Below are positions 7,261-38,589 of a DNA stretch of 38,589 bases, one piece after another. The notes below the pieces were generated by a model. The model saw nothing but the letters and a program-made list of their open reading frames with translations. It ran no database searches and was not told where the DNA came from. Both the position numbers and the translations under genes were made by a program. This stretch comes from Planctomycetota bacterium. GTDB taxonomy: Bacteria; Planctomycetota; UBA11346. The DNA is taken from assembly GCA_025055595.1 (NCBI GenBank), contig JANWWU010000062.1:1-38589 (forward strand), given 5' to 3'. Within the stretch, counting starts at the first letter, position 1. Every line of letters starts with the position of its first letter.

Positions 7261-8466
<1,206 letters not shown>

Positions 8467-8488
8467 GGTGCCTCCGGGGTGGAACGGT

Positions 8489-10408
8489 TCACGGCTCGAA
8501 GTAGGTGTAGCCCTGGATGCCGGCGGCGTAGCTCTCGACGATCTCGCGCCGCTCGGTCGGGGTCAGGCGCCCCTCGCGGACCGCGCGCTCGGCGCGGTCG
8601 CGGAACATCGCGATCAGGTCCTTGGGGTCGTACTCGACATAGCCGAGGACATCGGCGACGCTGTCGCCCTTGACCTCGCTGGTGAAATCGATGCGCCCGT
8701 CGGCATCGAGCTTGACCGAGACGATGTTGGTGTCGCCGAAGAGATTGTGCAGGTCGCCCAGCGTCTCCTGATAGGCGCCGACCAGGAAGACGCCGCACAG
8801 GTAGTCCTCGCCGGGGCGCAGCTCGTGCAGCGGCAGCGTGCGCTTGACGTCGTGGGGGTCGATGAAGTGGTCGATCTTGCCATCGCAGTCGCAGGTGATG
8901 TCGCTGAACGAGCCTTGGCGGGTCGGGCGCTCGTGCAGGCGGTGGATCGGCATGATCGGGAACAGCTGGCCGATCGCCCAGGAGTCGGGCAGCGACTGGA
9001 ACACCGAGAAGTTGCCGAAGTAGATGTCGCCGAGCGTCTCCTGCAGCTCGACGAGGTCGGGCGGCGGGTGCTTCAGCTCCCGGCACTCGCGGAGGATCCG
9101 CGCCACCACCCGCCAGAACAGGGTCTCGCCGTGGGCGCGCTGGCGCAGCGTCACGCCGTTGTGCAGGAAGGCGGTGCGGATCTGGTCGCGGTGGTAGATC
9201 GCGTCGTTGAAGCACTCCTGCAGGTTCTTCGGCGAGATCTGGCGGTGGATGTCCCACAGCTCGCGCAGCGAGGGATGGGCCTCGGGCCCGGGCTCGGCGA
9301 CCTCCTCCTCCTCCGGCTCGAAGCGGTCGACATCGAGGATGTTGAACACCAGCACCGAGGAGTAGCTGACGAGGAAGCGGCCGGACTCGGAGATGATGTC
9401 GGGATGCGGCAAGCGGTGCTTGTCGCAGGCGTTCATGATCGTCTCGACGATGTCGGCGCAGTACTCCTTGAGGTCGTAGTTGCGGCTGCCGGGGAAGTTG
9501 GAGCGCGAGCCGTCGTAGTCGACGGCGAGGCCGCCGCCGACATCGAAGATGCCCATCGCCGCGCCCTCGCGCGCCAGGTCGCAGTAGACGCGCGCCGCCT
9601 CCTGGGCCGCGGCGCGCACCGCGCCGATGTTCGGGATCTGGCTGCCGAGGTGGTAGTGCACCATCTGCAGGCAGTCGAGCATGTCCTTGGCGCGCAGCGC
9701 GTCGACGACGCGGATCGTCTCGGCCATCGTCAGGCCGAAGGTCGAGCGGTCGCCGCTGCTCTCCGTCCACTTGCCGGGCACGCGCGACGACAGCTTGAGG
9801 CGGACGCCGAGGCGCGGGCGCACGCCGAGGCGGGCGGCGCGCTCGAGGACGAGGTCGAGCTCGCTCGGCATCTCGAGGACGATCAGGGTCTGCGCGCCCA
9901 TCTTGAGGCTGGACAGCGCGAGGTCGATGAACTCGGCGTCCTTGTAGCCGTTGCAGACGATGTAGGCCTCGGGGTCCTGCATGTAGGCGAGCGCGATCAG
10001 CAGCTCGGCCTTGCTGCCGGCCTCCAGGCCGTGGTGGTAGCGGCGCCCGAACTGCGCGATCTCCTCGACGACCTGCTGCTGCTGGTTGACCTTGATCGGA
10101 TAGACGCCGCGGTAGCGGCCGCGGTAGCCGGCCTGCTGGATCGCCTCGGCGAAGCTGTCGTTGATCCGCTGGATCGTGCGGTCGAGGATGTCGCGGAAGC
10201 GCAAGAGCACCGGCAGGCCCATCCCGCGCTCCTTGATCCCGGCGACCACCTCCATCAGCGAGACATCGACGGTGTCGCCGTTGTGCGGCAGCTTGACGAC
10301 GACCTCGCCCTTGTCGTTGATGTCGAAGAAGCCAGCGCTCCAGGCGCGGATGTGGTAGAGCTCGGCGGCCTGCTGGACGGTCCAGCGTTCGAGCGCCTCG
10401 GCCTTCAT
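8489..10408 (-). CDS. speA: Biosynthetic arginine decarboxylase
   Basis: 'YPIKVNQQQQVVEEIAQFGRRYHHGLEAGSKAELLIAL', 'HYHLGSQIPNI', 'GIFDVGGGLAVDYDGSRSNF', 'LCGVFLVGAYQETLGDLHNLFGDTN'. Confidence 0.96.
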   Translation of the reverse strand: MKAEALERWTVQQAAELYHIRAWSAGFFDINDKGEVVVKLPHNGDTVDVSLMEVVAGIKERGMGLPVLLRFRDILDRTIQRINDSFAEAIQQAGYRGRYRGVYPIKVNQQQQVVEEIAQFGRRYHHGLEAGSKAELLIALAYMQDPEAYIVCNGYKDAEFIDLALSSLKMGAQTLIVLEMPSELDLVLERAARLGVRPRLGVRLKLSSRVPGKWTESSGDRSTFGLTMAETIRVVDALRAKDMLDCLQMVHYHLGSQIPNIGAVRAAAQEAARVYCDLAREGAAMGIFDVGGGLAVDYDGSRSNFPGSRNYDLKEYCADIVETIMNACDKHRLPHPDIISESGRFLVSYSSVLVFNILDVDRFEPEEEEVAEPGPEAHPSLRELWDIHRQISPKNLQECFNDAIYHRDQIRTAFLHNGVTLRQRAHGETLFWRVVARILRECRELKHPPPDLVELQETLGDIYFGNFSVFQSLPDSWAIGQLFPIMPIHRLHERPTRQGSFSDITCDCDGKIDHFIDPHDVKRTLPLHELRPGEDYLCGVFLVGAYQETLGDLHNLFGDTNIVSVKLDADGRIDFTSEVKGDSVADVLGYVEYDPKDLIAMFRDRAERAVREGRLTPTERREIVESYAAGIQGYTYFEP

Positions 10409-23651: not shown

Positions 23652-24880
23652 GCGGGGCCTTCCTCGCGCTGGTCCTCGTCGCCGCCGCCTGCGGGGCCTG
23701 CGCCGGCTCCTTCCTCGGCGTCGTCGTCCAGCGCCTGCCGCGCGCGCGCTCGCTGCTCGCCCCGCCGAGCCACTGCGACAGCTGCGGCACCGCGCTGGCG
23801 TGGTACGACAACCTGCCGATCCTCGGCTGGCTGCTGCTGCGCGGGCGCTGCCGCTACTGCCGCTTTCCGATCCCGGCCAGCTGCCTGTGGCTGGAGCTGG
23901 CGGTCGCGGCGCTGAGCGCCGGCGTCGTCGCCGCCGTCCTGCTGCTGCCGGAGCTGCGCGCCGGCTGGCTGCTCGTCGCCCTGCTCGGCAGCGGGCACCC
24001 CGTGCTGGCCGCCTGGCTGCCGCTGCTGGTCGCCGGCAGCGTGCTGCTGCTGCTCGCCTGGCTCCTGGTCGCCGTGGTGATCATCGACTACCGCCACCTG
24101 ATCATCCCCGACGAGCTCAGCAAGGGCCTGCAGGCCCTGGCCGTGCCGCTGGCGATGCTCGCCGGCAGCAACCTGATCTGGGCCGAGCGCCTGGACGGCG
24201 CCCTGGCCGTGCCCTGGGACCCCGTGCACTGGCTGCGCGCCGCCGATGTCCTGCGCGGCCTGCAGCTGGCGCCGACTGCGGCCATCGCCCCGCTGCTGCT
24301 CGCCGTCGCCCTCGGTCTGGCGGCGCTCGCCGCTTCCCTGCCGCTGGCCCGCTATGTCTACGGCCACTGCGTGCAGGAGCGCTGGGACGAGCGCGATCAC
24401 CGCGCGCTGGTGCGCGGGGCCTGGTGGTTCGGCGGCTGCCTGGCGGCCTGGACGCTGCTCGGCTGCGCGGCCCTGCTGTGGCTGCCCTTCCCGCCGGCGC
24501 GCGGGCTGTGGGACGCCCAGGCGCTCTTCGCCCAGGCCCTGCTGCAGGCCGTGCTCGGCGCGCTGACCGGCTGGTGGCTGCCCTGGCTGGTCGCGGTGCT
24601 CGGCAGCGCCGCCTTCCGCCGCAACGCGATGGGCTACGGCGATGTCAAGCTGTTCGCAGCGCTCGGCGCCTTCCTCGGCCCGCTCGGCACCCTCGTCGCC
24701 TTCCTCGCCGCGATCCTCGTCGGCACCCTCGTCGGCATCCCGGCGCGCCTGCTCGGCGCCGGGCGCGAGCTGCCCTTCGGCCCGGCGCTCGCCTACGGCA
24801 CGGCGCTGGCGATCGCCGCCGGCCCCTGGCTGTGGCCCTGGCTGTGGGCGCGCTGCGTCGCGCCTTGGGTCCTGCCCTAG
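23648..24880 (+). CDS. Prepilin peptidase (A24 family), unusually long
   Basis: 'AGSFLGVVVQRLPR', zinc-binding 'CDSCGTALAWYDNLPILGWLLLRGRCRYC', 'VVIIDYRHLIIPDELS', 'NAMGYGDVKLFAALGAFLG'. Confidence 0.93.
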   Translation: MSGAFLALVLVAAACGACAGSFLGVVVQRLPRARSLLAPPSHCDSCGTALAWYDNLPILGWLLLRGRCRYCRFPIPASCLWLELAVAALSAGVVAAVLLLPELRAGWLLVALLGSGHPVLAAWLPLLVAGSVLLLLAWLLVAVVIIDYRHLIIPDELSKGLQALAVPLAMLAGSNLIWAERLDGALAVPWDPVHWLRAADVLRGLQLAPTAAIAPLLLAVALGLAALAASLPLARYVYGHCVQERWDERDHRALVRGAWWFGGCLAAWTLLGCAALLWLPFPPARGLWDAQALFAQALLQAVLGALTGWWLPWLVAVLGSAAFRRNAMGYGDVKLFAALGAFLGPLGTLVAFLAAILVGTLVGIPARLLGAGRELPFGPALAYGTALAIAAGPWLWPWLWARCVAPWVLP

Positions 24881-26136
24881 CGGGCGGCCCACAGGAAGAC
24901 GAAGACCGCCGCCAGCACGAAGCCGCACAGCGCGAGGATCATCCAGATCCACACCGCGACCCGCAGCCCGTGCAGCTGCCGCTCGAGCGAGGCGATGCGC
25001 TCGCGCTCGGCCTGGATCACGGTCAGGATCCCGCTCTTGCTGGTCGGCAGCTCGCCGCGCTTGCCGGCGAGCTCGAGCTTGAGCAGCTCGAGGTCCTTGA
25101 TGATGTCCTCGGCGGACTGGTAGCGGTCGGCGACCGACTTGGCGAGCATGCGTTCGACGATCTCGACCAGCCGCTCGGGCAGATCGCGGCGCAGGCCGTG
25201 CAGCCGCGGCGGCGGGGTGTCGATGTGCGCGCGCATCACCGCCGAGCAGGTCCCGGAGTACATCGTCCGCGCGGTCAGCATGTGGAACAGGCTGGCGCCG
25301 AGCGAGTAGATGTCGCTGCGCACATCGAGGTCGCGCTCGCCGCGCGCCTGCTCGGGGCTGATGTAGTCCGGGGTGCCGATCGTCGTCCCCTCCTTCATCA
25401 GCGTGCGGTCGAGCAGCGACTGCTGGATGAAGCCGAAGTCGCCGAGCTTCACCGTGCCGTCGCGCATCACCATGATGTTCGCCGGCTTGATGTCGCGGTG
25501 CACGATGCCGTGCTGCGAGAGGTAGGCGAGGGCATCGCAGACCTGGCGCGCGATGTCGATGACGCGGTCGACCGGCAGCGGGCCGTCGTGGTTGATCATG
25601 TCCTCGACGGTGACGCCGTCGACGTACTCCATCGAGAAGTAGTAGAGCCCCTGGTACTTGCCGACATCGAAGACCTGGATGATGTTGGGGTGCGAGAGCT
25701 TGCCGGCGGCCCGCGCCTCGAGCAGGAAGCGCTTGCGGAACTCCTCGTCGTCGGCCCACTTCTGGTGCAGGATCTTGAGCGCGACGGTGCGGTGCATCGA
25801 CAGCTGCTCGGCGAGGTAGACCTCGCCCATGCCGCCCTCGCCGATGCGCCGGATCAGGCGGTAGCCGCCGATCTGCTTCTTGTGGTGGACGCCGCTCGCC
25901 GAACCCGTGCGTTCGTCGCGCAGGATGCGCTTGAGCGCCTTGTCCAACCGCTCCGCGGTCGTCGCATCGAGCATGCCGCTCTCGACCAGCACCTCGCGCA
26001 GCGGGCGCCCGCTCTCCTTGGCGCGGTCCATCGCCGCGTCGAACTGCTCGGGCGTGATCAGCCGGCCCTCGATGGCGAGCTGCCCGTAGCGGAAGTTCTC
26101 GTCCGGGTGGGTGACCTGCTGGCTGGTTGTCGCCAT
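24877..26136 (-). CDS. Serine/threonine protein kinase with C-terminal TM anchor
   Basis: 'GYRLIRRIGEGGMGEVYLAEQ', 'IVHRDIKPANIMVMRDGTVKLGDFGFIQQ', 'ISPEQARGERDLDVRSDIYSLGASLFHML'; C-terminal TM 'VAVWIWMILALCGFVLAAVFVFLW'. Confidence 0.95.
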   Translation of the reverse strand: MATTSQQVTHPDENFRYGQLAIEGRLITPEQFDAAMDRAKESGRPLREVLVESGMLDATTAERLDKALKRILRDERTGSASGVHHKKQIGGYRLIRRIGEGGMGEVYLAEQLSMHRTVALKILHQKWADDEEFRKRFLLEARAAGKLSHPNIIQVFDVGKYQGLYYFSMEYVDGVTVEDMINHDGPLPVDRVIDIARQVCDALAYLSQHGIVHRDIKPANIMVMRDGTVKLGDFGFIQQSLLDRTLMKEGTTIGTPDYISPEQARGERDLDVRSDIYSLGASLFHMLTARTMYSGTCSAVMRAHIDTPPPRLHGLRRDLPERLVEIVERMLAKSVADRYQSAEDIIKDLELLKLELAGKRGELPTSKSGILTVIQAERERIASLERQLHGLRVAVWIWMILALCGFVLAAVFVFLWAAR

Positions 26137-34586: not shown

Positions 34587-36122
34587 ATGCTCGCCGGCTT
34601 CCTCGCCCGCCTCGCCCTGCCCTGGCTGCGCGGCTACGACCGCCCGACGCCGACGCCGGCGGCGATGCGCGCGGCGCAGGACCGCATCCGCGCCCGCCTG
34701 GTCGCCGAGCTCGCGCCGCTGCCGGTCGGCCGGGCGCGCGGCCTCGATCGCCTGCCGCTCGACGAGCGGCTGCCCGAGGCCTTCCGCCGCGAGGTCCCGC
34801 TCGCCACCTACGCCGACTACCTGCCGCTGCTCGAGCGCGCGGCGCGCGGCGAGGCCGATGTCCTCTTTCCCGGCAAGCCGGTGGCGCTGGCGATCACCAG
34901 CGGCACGACGAGCGCCGGCCAGGCCGGCGAGCGCTTCATCCCGCAGTCGCCGGCCCTGCTCGAGCATCACCGCGCCGGCGCCGCCGTCGCCTTCACCCGC
35001 CTCGTCGATTGGGTCGGCGCCGACCGCCTGCTGACCGGCCGCCTGCTGCTGATGGGCGGCTCCACCGATCTCAAGCGCAACGCCTTCGGCGTGCCCTACG
35101 GCGATCTCTCCGGCATCGTCGTCTCGCTGATCCCCCGCCTGCTGTGGTCGCTCTACGAGCCGGGCCGCGAGATCGCGCTGATGAGCGACTGGGAAGCCAA
35201 GCTGGCGGCGATGAGCCGGCGCGTCGCCCGCGCCGACCTGCGCCTGGCCAGCGGCATCGGCTCCTGGATGCTCGCGCTCTTCGCCGCGGTGTGCCGCGAG
35301 CGCGGCGTCGAACGGGTCCGCGATGCCTGGCCGCGGCTGGCCGCCGTCGTCCACGGCGGGCACGCGATGGAGCCGCTGATCCCGCAGTTCCAGCACCACC
35401 TGCCGAGCGACGTCTGGATGCAGGAGGTGTATCCGGCGAGCGAGGCCTTCATCGCCGTCGGCTGCAAGCCCTGGCGGCTCGGCGATGGTCGGCCCGCTGC
35501 CCTCGAGCTGCTCTGCGACCACGGCGTCCTGCTCGAGTTCTGCCCCGACAGCGATCCCCGCCCCGAGGCCTGCGTCGGGCCCGAGGCCCTGGAGCCCGGC
35601 GGCGTCTACCGCGTGATCCTGACCACGCCCGGCGGCCTGATCCGCTGGCAGATCGGCGACCTCGTGCGCGCCGAGGCTCCCGGCCTGGTGCGCTTCGCCG
35701 GCCGCATCAAGACGCGGCTCAGCCTCTTCGGCGAGCATGTCGAGGGCGATCTGCTGGCGCAGGCCCTCGCCGTCGCCTGCGCCGCGACCGGCGCGCGCAT
35801 CCGCCACAGCCATGTCGCGCCGGTGCTGCCGAGCGCCAGCGAGGGCCGCGGCGCCCACGAGTGGCTCGTACAGCCCGAGCCCGACGCCCCGCCCTTCGAT
35901 GTCGCGGCCTTCGCCGAGGCCATCGATCGGCACCTGCGCGCGCACAGCGCCGACTACGACGCCCACCGCGTCGCCCAGCTCGCCGCCCCGCGGATCACCG
36001 TCCTGCCCGATGGCGCGATCGAGCGCTGGCTGGCGAGCAAAGGCAAGCTCGGCGGCCAGCACAAGGTGCCGCAGGCCTGGGAAGACCGCACGATCGCCGA
36101 GCAGATCCTCGCTGCCCGTTGA
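34587..36122 (+). CDS. GH3-family (auxin-responsive GH3-like) acyl-adenylating/amido synthetase homologue
   Basis: 'VALAITSGTTSAGQAGERFIPQS' (GH3 motif I), 'MQEVYPASEAFIAV' (motif II), 'LIRWQIGDLVRAE' (YRxGD-like motif III), 'LSLFGEHVEGD'. Confidence 0.9.
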   Translation: MLAGFLARLALPWLRGYDRPTPTPAAMRAAQDRIRARLVAELAPLPVGRARGLDRLPLDERLPEAFRREVPLATYADYLPLLERAARGEADVLFPGKPVALAITSGTTSAGQAGERFIPQSPALLEHHRAGAAVAFTRLVDWVGADRLLTGRLLLMGGSTDLKRNAFGVPYGDLSGIVVSLIPRLLWSLYEPGREIALMSDWEAKLAAMSRRVARADLRLASGIGSWMLALFAAVCRERGVERVRDAWPRLAAVVHGGHAMEPLIPQFQHHLPSDVWMQEVYPASEAFIAVGCKPWRLGDGRPAALELLCDHGVLLEFCPDSDPRPEACVGPEALEPGGVYRVILTTPGGLIRWQIGDLVRAEAPGLVRFAGRIKTRLSLFGEHVEGDLLAQALAVACAATGARIRHSHVAPVLPSASEGRGAHEWLVQPEPDAPPFDVAAFAEAIDRHLRAHSADYDAHRVAQLAAPRITVLPDGAIERWLASKGKLGGQHKVPQAWEDRTIAEQILAAR

Positions 36123-36174: not shown

Positions 36175-37596
36175 ATGCCCAGCCCGCAGCCCGCGCAAGT
36201 CGTCATCCTCGGCGCCTCCGGCGATCTCACGGCGCGCAAGCTGATCCCGGCCCTCGCCGCCGCCTTTCGGCAGGGGCACCTGCACCCCGCCACCCAGGTG
36301 ATCGGCGTCGCCCGCCGGCCCTGGGACGACGACGGCTTCCGCGAGCATCTGCGATGCGCGGTGCCGTCGCTCGGCGACGAGTTCCTGGCCCGCACCCGCT
36401 ATGTGCTGACCCACCTCGAAAGCGCCGAGGAGTACCGCGCGCTCGCCGCCCGCCTCGACGCTTTGGCCGACGCCGCGCCCGCCCACCGCGTCTATTACCT
36501 GGCGATCAAGCCCGAGCTGTTCCTGCCGACGCTGCGCGGCCTGCACGGCGCCGGCCTGCTGCAGCAAGCGGTGGACGGACCGCGCCGCTGCGTCGTCATC
36601 GAGAAGCCCTTCGGCAGCGACCTGGCGAGCGCCCTCGCGCTCAACCATGCCTTGCGCGAGCTGCTCGATGAGTCGCAGATCTTCCGCATCGATCACTACC
36701 TCGGCAAGGAGACCGTGCAGAATCTGCTCGTGCTGCGCTTCCGCAACGCGCTCTTCGAGCCGCTGTGGAACCAGAAATACATCGAGCTCGTGCAGATCAC
36801 GGTCGCCGAGACCATCGGCGTCGAGGGCCGCGGCGCCTTCTACGACGGCACCGGCGCGGTCCGCGACATCCTGCAGAACCACCTGCTGCAGATCCTCGCC
36901 CTGATCGCGATGGAGCCGCCGGCCTCGCTCGCCGCCGACGACATCCGCGACGAGAAGGTGAAAGTGCTACGCGCGCTGCGCGGCTTCGCCGCCCTCGACC
37001 CCCGCCGCCACATCGTGCGCGGCCAATATGCCGGTTATCGCCGCGAGGCGGGCGTCGACCCGCAGAGCGAGACCGAGTCCTTCATCGCCGTGCGCACCTA
37101 TATCGACACCTGGCGCTGGGGCGGCGTGCCCTTCCTGCTGCGCACCGGCAAGGCCTTGGCCAAGCGCTTCACCAGCGTGCGCCTGCAGCTGCGGATGCCG
37201 CCGCATGCGCTGTTCGGCGCTCCCGAGGAATGCCATCTGCGGCCCAACGCGCTGACCCTGCGCATCCAGCCCAACGACGGCGTCGAGCTCGACTTCGATG
37301 TCAAGGAGCCGGGCCCCGGGCTGGTGATCAAGCCCGCCAAGCTCGATTTCGACTACGCCGCGCGCTTCGGCCGTGCCTTGCCCGACGCCTACGAGCGCCT
37401 GCTCGTCGATGTCCTCCACGGCGACCAGTCGCTGTTCATCCGCAGCGACGAGATCGAGCACAGCTGGCGATGGATTGACAGCCTGCGCAACGCTATGCGC
37501 GACACGCCCTTGTATCTCTACGAGCGCGGCTCCTGGGGCCCCTTTGCCAGCGATGACTTGTTCGGCCCTTGCGAAGGCCGCTGGTGGTGCGGCTGA
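36175..37596 (+). CDS. zwf: Glucose-6-phosphate 1-dehydrogenase
   Basis: 'VVILGASGDLTARKLIPAL', 'VVIEKPFGSDLASALALN', 'IFRIDHYLGKETVQNLLVLRFRNALFEPLWN', 'VPFLLRTGKALAKR'. Confidence 0.98.
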   Translation: MPSPQPAQVVILGASGDLTARKLIPALAAAFRQGHLHPATQVIGVARRPWDDDGFREHLRCAVPSLGDEFLARTRYVLTHLESAEEYRALAARLDALADAAPAHRVYYLAIKPELFLPTLRGLHGAGLLQQAVDGPRRCVVIEKPFGSDLASALALNHALRELLDESQIFRIDHYLGKETVQNLLVLRFRNALFEPLWNQKYIELVQITVAETIGVEGRGAFYDGTGAVRDILQNHLLQILALIAMEPPASLAADDIRDEKVKVLRALRGFAALDPRRHIVRGQYAGYRREAGVDPQSETESFIAVRTYIDTWRWGGVPFLLRTGKALAKRFTSVRLQLRMPPHALFGAPEECHLRPNALTLRIQPNDGVELDFDVKEPGPGLVIKPAKLDFDYAARFGRALPDAYERLLVDVLHGDQSLFIRSDEIEHSWRWIDSLRNAMRDTPLYLYERGSWGPFASDDLFGPCEGRWWCG

Positions 37597-37717
37597 AGCG
37601 CGCGGCGCGTATGCAACGCGGCGCGGCTGTATGACTCTCGGCCGTGCGTCGAGCATGCTACGCGCTGGCGTCTTCGGCGCAGGGCCCCAACCTCCGCTGA
37701 AACGAGAGGGGTATGCC

Positions 37718-38589
37718 ATGCTCGCTCGCCCATCTGTCGCTCTGCGTCTCGCTGGTGTCGCCATCGCTGCCAACATCTGCCTGCACGCGCTCGATGTGCC
37801 GATCGACGATCCGGTGCAGTATGCCTTTAACCCGGATCTCGGCTACGACACTGTGCGGCCCAAGCAGTGGATTCCCGACGAGACCGACTTCTTCCACAAG
37901 TACACGGTGATCAAGCCCGGCGGCACCTCGCCGATGATCAAGAATCCCGTCACGCAGGCGATGTACCCGATCACCAACACCGACAGCACGGCGCTGATGG
38001 TCGACTGCCGCGAGAAGGGCTGGATGGGCAGCATCAGCTACATGCTCGAGTACCCGCAGCCGGTCAACCGCATCCAGATCACCTTCGATGGCAAGTGGGA
38101 TGTTTACGACGCGAACTGGGTGGGCTGGGACGGCGTCCACAACGACATGTACCTCTACAAGGACGGCGTGATCGTTGGCGAGCAGTACGGCTACAACATC
38201 ACGACCGCGCAGTGGGGCGGGCCGAACTACGGGACCAAGGACGCGAGCAACAACGTCGTGTGGCAGAGCTTCAACAAGGAGTTCACTGGGCTGTCGAACT
38301 TGGGCGCCAAGATCGTGCGGCTGCGCATGCTGTACTTCGTGACGGCCTCTGGCCGCGGGTGGCTGAAGAACCTCAAGGTTGAAGCCTGGAATGCGCAGAA
38401 TCAGAAGATGACGCCGCTGTCGCACGGCTCGCTGGCGCCGCCGACCGACACGACGGGGTGGTGGCAGTTTGCGGGCAGCTTGCTGACGGATGATCCGAGC
38501 CGCTTCCAGGCCGTCGATGGCTCGCTGCTGTTGTCGGCGCCGGCCAACAAGCGGGTGATCGTGCAGAACGGACGGCTCGTGTTCCAGGA
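37718..38589 (+). CDS. Putative exported protein, partial (runs off the right edge); function unknown
   Basis: ATG 37718 with gagagg about 10 nt upstream; frame open to the window end with no stop, about 290 codons. Begins MLARPSVALRLAGVAIAANICLHALDVPIDDPVQYAFNPDLGYDTVRPKQWIPDETDFFHKYTVIKPGG and continues with a W/Y/N-rich beta-type sequence ('WDVYDANWVGWDGVHNDMYLYKDG'). Missing from the supplied ORF track. Confidence 0.8.
   Translation, partial: MLARPSVALRLAGVAIAANICLHALDVPIDDPVQYAFNPDLGYDTVRPKQWIPDETDFFHKYTVIKPGGTSPMIKNPVTQAMYPITNTDSTALMVDCREKGWMGSISYMLEYPQPVNRIQITFDGKWDVYDANWVGWDGVHNDMYLYKDGVIVGEQYGYNITTAQWGGPNYGTKDASNNVVWQSFNKEFTGLSNLGAKIVRLRMLYFVTASGRGWLKNLKVEAWNAQNQKMTPLSHGSLAPPTDTTGWWQFAGSLLTDDPSRFQAVDGSLLLSAPANKRVIVQNGRLVFQ

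Follow-up and report, generated by a model that had tools for sequence, protein, structure and literature searches.

The open frame at the contig end

The window, i. e. the whole stretch of 38,589 nucleotides that was analysed, comes from a Planctomycetota bacterium and ends at position 38589, where the contig ends as well. On the plus strand an open reading frame begins with ATG 37718 and runs through 290 codons to 38587, reaching the last base of the window. This agrees with an earlier sequence-only reading of the same stretch, which had described a frame open from this ATG to the last base. Because the contig stops at 38589, the missing stop codon reflects the edge of the assembly and is no property of the gene. 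The upstream neighbour, outside the feature, is zwf (36175 to 37596, plus strand), which encodes glucose-6-phosphate dehydrogenase (TIGR00871, 536 bits, above the curated cut-off).

One of 2000 base shuffles left a composition-matched stretch open. Because of this and of a third-position GC of 0.89, the frame from ATG 37718 is very probably coding; its product is called P0001 here. The same frame is also open further upstream, with a GTG start at 37373 that overlaps zwf. We favour the start at 37718, since it is preceded by the Shine-Dalgarno-like stretch GAGAGGGG (37704 to 37711, plus strand, six bases before the ATG), which may serve as a ribosome-binding site, and since the N-terminus that follows is signal-like. 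The 3' part of the gene was sought on the other contigs of the genome by DNA overlap with the last 200 bases, in the assembly with the paralogue described below as the query, and in the same genome with a 28-row profile; none of these searches found it. Rfam gave no match in the region of the window end.

Several other genes of the window were also inspected. At 34587 to 36119 (plus strand) lies a gene related to the lyso-ornithine lipid synthetase OlsH (GH3-like); its score of 282 bits is below the cut-off of 620. The minus strand carries at 7264 to 10408 an arginine decarboxylase gene (speA) and after it a carboxynorspermidine-synthase-like gene, a pair that points to another route to polyamines, and at 24880 to 26136 a Ser/Thr protein kinase gene with an MshE-like stretch before the kinase domain that stays below the cut-off of the MshE model.

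The sequence-only reading had further ascribed to the frame more A/T-ending codons than zwf has, and had considered horizontal acquisition or special expression selection. Neither idea is borne out by the codon usage. GC3 of the frame is 0.893 versus 0.918 in zwf, and 0.94 to 0.98 in speA, lepA, hisC, the kinase gene and the carboxynorspermidine-synthase-like gene. GC3s is 0.885 versus 0.915 in zwf and about 0.90 (sd 0.05) for the window, a mean that is rough because its frames were picked automatically. By our own estimate, the third-position difference between P0001 and zwf is inside the sampling error for 290 codons. Thus GC3 is ordinary for the genome, and horizontal acquisition was rejected on this measure. 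Total GC is 62% in P0001 versus 69% in zwf, and the gap arises mainly at codon position 1 (0.56 versus 0.72), where the lower value goes with more Asn, Thr and Lys. The apparent shift in composition is therefore mainly an amino-acid effect. The description of the protein as rich in aromatic residues and Asn did hold: Asn makes up 6.2% of P0001 and 1.7% of zwf, and Phe, Trp and Tyr together 11.7% and 9.1%.

The N-terminus and the beta-sandwich module

Residues 1 to about 24 (37718 to 37789, plus strand) form a putative signal-peptide-like N-terminus. It is hydrophobic (MLARPSVALRLAGVAIAANICLHALD), with a 12-residue hydropathy of up to 2.2, and a possible cut would follow LHA. In the alignment, a relative from the same genus (G002:C174) has a similar leader ahead of LDLPLDP. 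The signal-like start that had been noticed from the sequence is thus also found here.

An AlphaFold2 model of P0001, built from a 20-row alignment, predicts a beta-sandwich of the jelly-roll type at residues 82 to 224 (37961 to 38389, plus strand), with strands at 82-87, 90-97, 103-111, 118-129, 140-148, 151-160, 183-189, 199-208 and 212-224. The mean pLDDT is moderate (65), higher over most of the sandwich and poor at the ends. In a Foldseek search against the PDB, the best matches of the model included a hyaluronan-binding module, CBM16, CBM61, CBM28, CBM4 and CBM22; those to CBM4, 16, 22, 28 and 61 had E-values of 1e-5 to 2e-4. The matches also comprised jelly-roll proteins of other kinds, among them phage tailspikes and ephrin receptors. 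Together with the Pfam assignment of relatives (see below), the model points to a CBM4/9-like domain, and the beta-type character expected from the sequence is consistent with it.

Like CBM4/9 (PF02018), the predicted domain is a beta-sandwich of similar size placed N-terminally in what would be a glycoside hydrolase. Unlike typical members it does not reach the PF02018 cut-off, whereas two relatives with the same linker do, and in the alignment P0001 carries extra insertions, e. g. at about residues 31-47 and 74-91.

Direct searches with P0001 gave no assignment. There was no match in Pfam or NCBIfam, nothing was accepted from a sequence search of the PDB, where weak acetyltransferase matches (E about 0.1) were taken as chance, and megablast against plasmids found no match, nor did an initial scan of GTDB contigs for which P0001 was the only query. 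A match in another genome (G020, E 4e-4) was not taken as homology; its 427-residue frame reads like an outer-membrane porin. No close orthologue was found in the 22 other genomes analysed from the class, whose 23 genomes all belong to a single family. The earlier statement that the protein cannot be assigned to a family is therefore right for direct Pfam and NCBIfam searches. It does not stand where kinship is considered, which leads to modular glycoside hydrolases.

Relatives, the linker and the catalytic barrel

A search of the same genome found an 812-residue paralogue on another contig, C81 (E 2.8e-8). Pairwise, it aligned with residues 210-283 of P0001 at 38% identity over 74 residues (E 2e-9), and the N-terminal domains were aligned as well. 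The same-genus relative mentioned above, which is also cut by a contig end, aligned with residues 92-267 (E 2e-12). A conserved linker spans residues 243-290 (38444 to 38587, plus strand; TDTTGWWQF...DDPS...VDGSLLLSAPANKRVIVQNGRLVFQ), supported by the pairwise alignment with the paralogue and by a profile of six proteins. In the relatives the linker follows the pattern DxSxLLDAPAGKhGfxxvkxgxxxF, with PAGKhG where P0001 reads PANKR, and leads directly into the first strand of a GH5-like barrel (DGTPxRFWG).

The six proteins come from GTDB contigs (L088, L137, L147, L120, L157 and L156) and consist of one or two N-terminal domains, the linker and then the barrel. L137 and L156 match both CBM_4_9 (PF02018) and Cellulase (GH5) in Pfam above the cut-offs, and L088 just misses that of PF02018. 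A profile was made of the last module and the linker of these six, without P0001, the paralogue or the same-genus relative. It matched the last 117 residues of P0001 (174-290) with 28.2 bits, whereas the best of 50,000 shuffles reached 13.6; as the six had been found with a profile that included P0001 (A1), this test is independent in sequences, not in selection. Addition of the paralogue and the same-genus relative raised the score to 47.5 bits versus 12.4 for shuffles. The region matched is the end of the CBM4/9-like module plus the linker, and the match extends to the last residue of P0001, exactly where the first strand of the barrel comes next in the relatives. Thus P0001 shares module-plus-linker homology with modular enzymes of the GH5-like, clan GH-A type. 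Taken alone, the linker scored a non-significant 0.6 bits against a broad profile of the family from which the paralogue was left out, and the N-terminal domain alone scored a weak 5.3 bits against 21 more distant modules. Hence it is through the two close relatives and the six proteins that P0001 is connected to the wider family of modules.

The start of the paralogue gene itself lies on contig C85. The high ends of C81 and C85 share an exact overlap of 141 bases inside the gene, and the two contigs probably join. This start encodes a segment that looks transmembrane (IVGIVVAVIAIAVLIVAYLYA) and a stretch rich in Pro and Ala, with no classic cleaved signal peptide. The remaining part of the paralogue forms a GH5-like barrel. 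Modelling gave a confident structure for the paralogue (pLDDT 83), the nearest solved structures are GH5 mannanases, and the best profile match is the GH5 mannanase 8gf3 (E 2e-13). N381-E382 and E529 are nearly invariant in 28 sequences; in the model the first pair comes directly after strand 374-378 and E529 falls within strand 525-532, which would place them as expected at the acid/base and nucleophile positions of clan GH-A, whose (beta/alpha)8 barrels carry the catalytic Glu residues after strands 4 and 7. The barrel of the relatives thus resembles GH5 and clan GH-A (PF00150 Cellulase) in its type and its two expected glutamates. It differs in that the paralogue stays below the Pfam GH5 cut-off (15.3 versus 23.5 bits), so that its exact CAZy family can be given only tentatively, and for P0001 the barrel is outside the window.

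In a sample of 392 genomes from the phylum, 62 have the catalytic family of the paralogue, and most of these matches that cover the front of the barrel start around paralogue residue 175-200, i. e. at the linker. In GTDB contigs 503 loci encode a relative; among the best 80 of these, the records are titled Lentisphaerae, Armatimonadetes, Acidobacteria, Bacteroidales, Clostridia and others.

The surroundings of the two close relatives were inspected as well. Immediately downstream of the paralogue gene (L006:76-2877, on C81) are genes for a small, exported-looking protein of 171 residues, which reads like another such module and has no Pfam match, and for a GH94 glycoside phosphorylase. The three genes suggest a small cluster for beta-glycan utilisation, and the GH94 neighbour fits the use of beta-linked oligosaccharides; it adjoins the paralogue, whereas the P0001 gene adjoins zwf. 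Upstream of the same-genus relative (L007:2303-5738) are genes for a regulator of the AraC type and for a carbohydrate esterase of the SASA type, whose C-terminal part has repeated stretches that resemble the module.

Interpretation and alternatives

We consider it highly likely that P0001 makes up the N-terminal portion of a multidomain enzyme, a secreted GH5-like glycoside hydrolase of clan GH-A, and that 37718 to 38587 is the 5' part of its gene. Within the window lie only the signal-like N-terminus, the module and the linker; the barrel would follow beyond the contig end, as it does in the relatives. The signal peptide would export the enzyme, and the CBM4/9-like beta-sandwich would bind a polysaccharide chain and thereby keep the enzyme on its substrate. 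The conserved linker would join this module to a (beta/alpha)8 barrel, which may act on the glycan as a retaining hydrolase with the customary pair of glutamates. The nearest folds hint at a substrate of the beta-mannan or beta-glucan type. A described system with similar components is the GH148 enzyme EngU, a metagenomic clan GH-A beta-glucanase with a CBM4, too divergent for direct assignment, whose catalytic domain carries the CBM4 as an insertion (PMC5725463). Here, in contrast, the module is N-terminal to the catalytic domain; the two were compared by description.

The module could also be read in other ways. A 342-residue protein from the same genus (L083) consists of two such modules with no recognised catalytic domain, so P0001 might likewise stand alone, as an exported protein of carbohydrate-binding or lectin-like type that ends soon past the contig edge. 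Yet the frame of L083 stops with its second module, whereas P0001 runs on into the linker that precedes the barrel in the relatives, which makes this improbable. The same linker argues against a fusion of the module to another catalytic type such as GH10, a beta-helix lyase or an esterase. A profile search did find such modules ahead of GH10 (L081) and after a beta-helix (L084), but the linker match of P0001 is common to the GH5-like group, and we regard a different catalytic partner as very improbable.

Besides a carbohydrate-binding protein, the sequence-only reading had offered a surface-layer protein or an adhesin, perhaps obtained by horizontal transfer. The signal-like N-terminus, the beta-rich sequence with its aromatic residues and Asn, the lack of a close orthologue in the 22 other genomes from the class and a lower-ranking Foldseek match to a Kgp adhesin domain would all suit the latter two. 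However, P0001 matched no such family in Pfam or NCBIfam, its homology points to glycoside hydrolases and its GC3 is ordinary, so that a surface-layer protein or adhesin is scarcely credible. The proposal of a carbohydrate-binding protein fares better, as the visible part appears to be a signal-like N-terminus followed by a CBM4/9-like sandwich. It is conceivable, though unlikely, that this module, with those of the paralogue and the same-genus relative, constitutes a separate, divergent family of carbohydrate-binding modules that has an unusual specificity and sits on an enzyme from a lineage with few descriptions of its carbohydrate-active enzymes.

With a modular glycoside hydrolase as the preferred reading, the value of the result lies in annotation only: an exported protein at the edge of a contig that had seemed unassignable would be the front of a polysaccharide-degrading enzyme from a widespread family.
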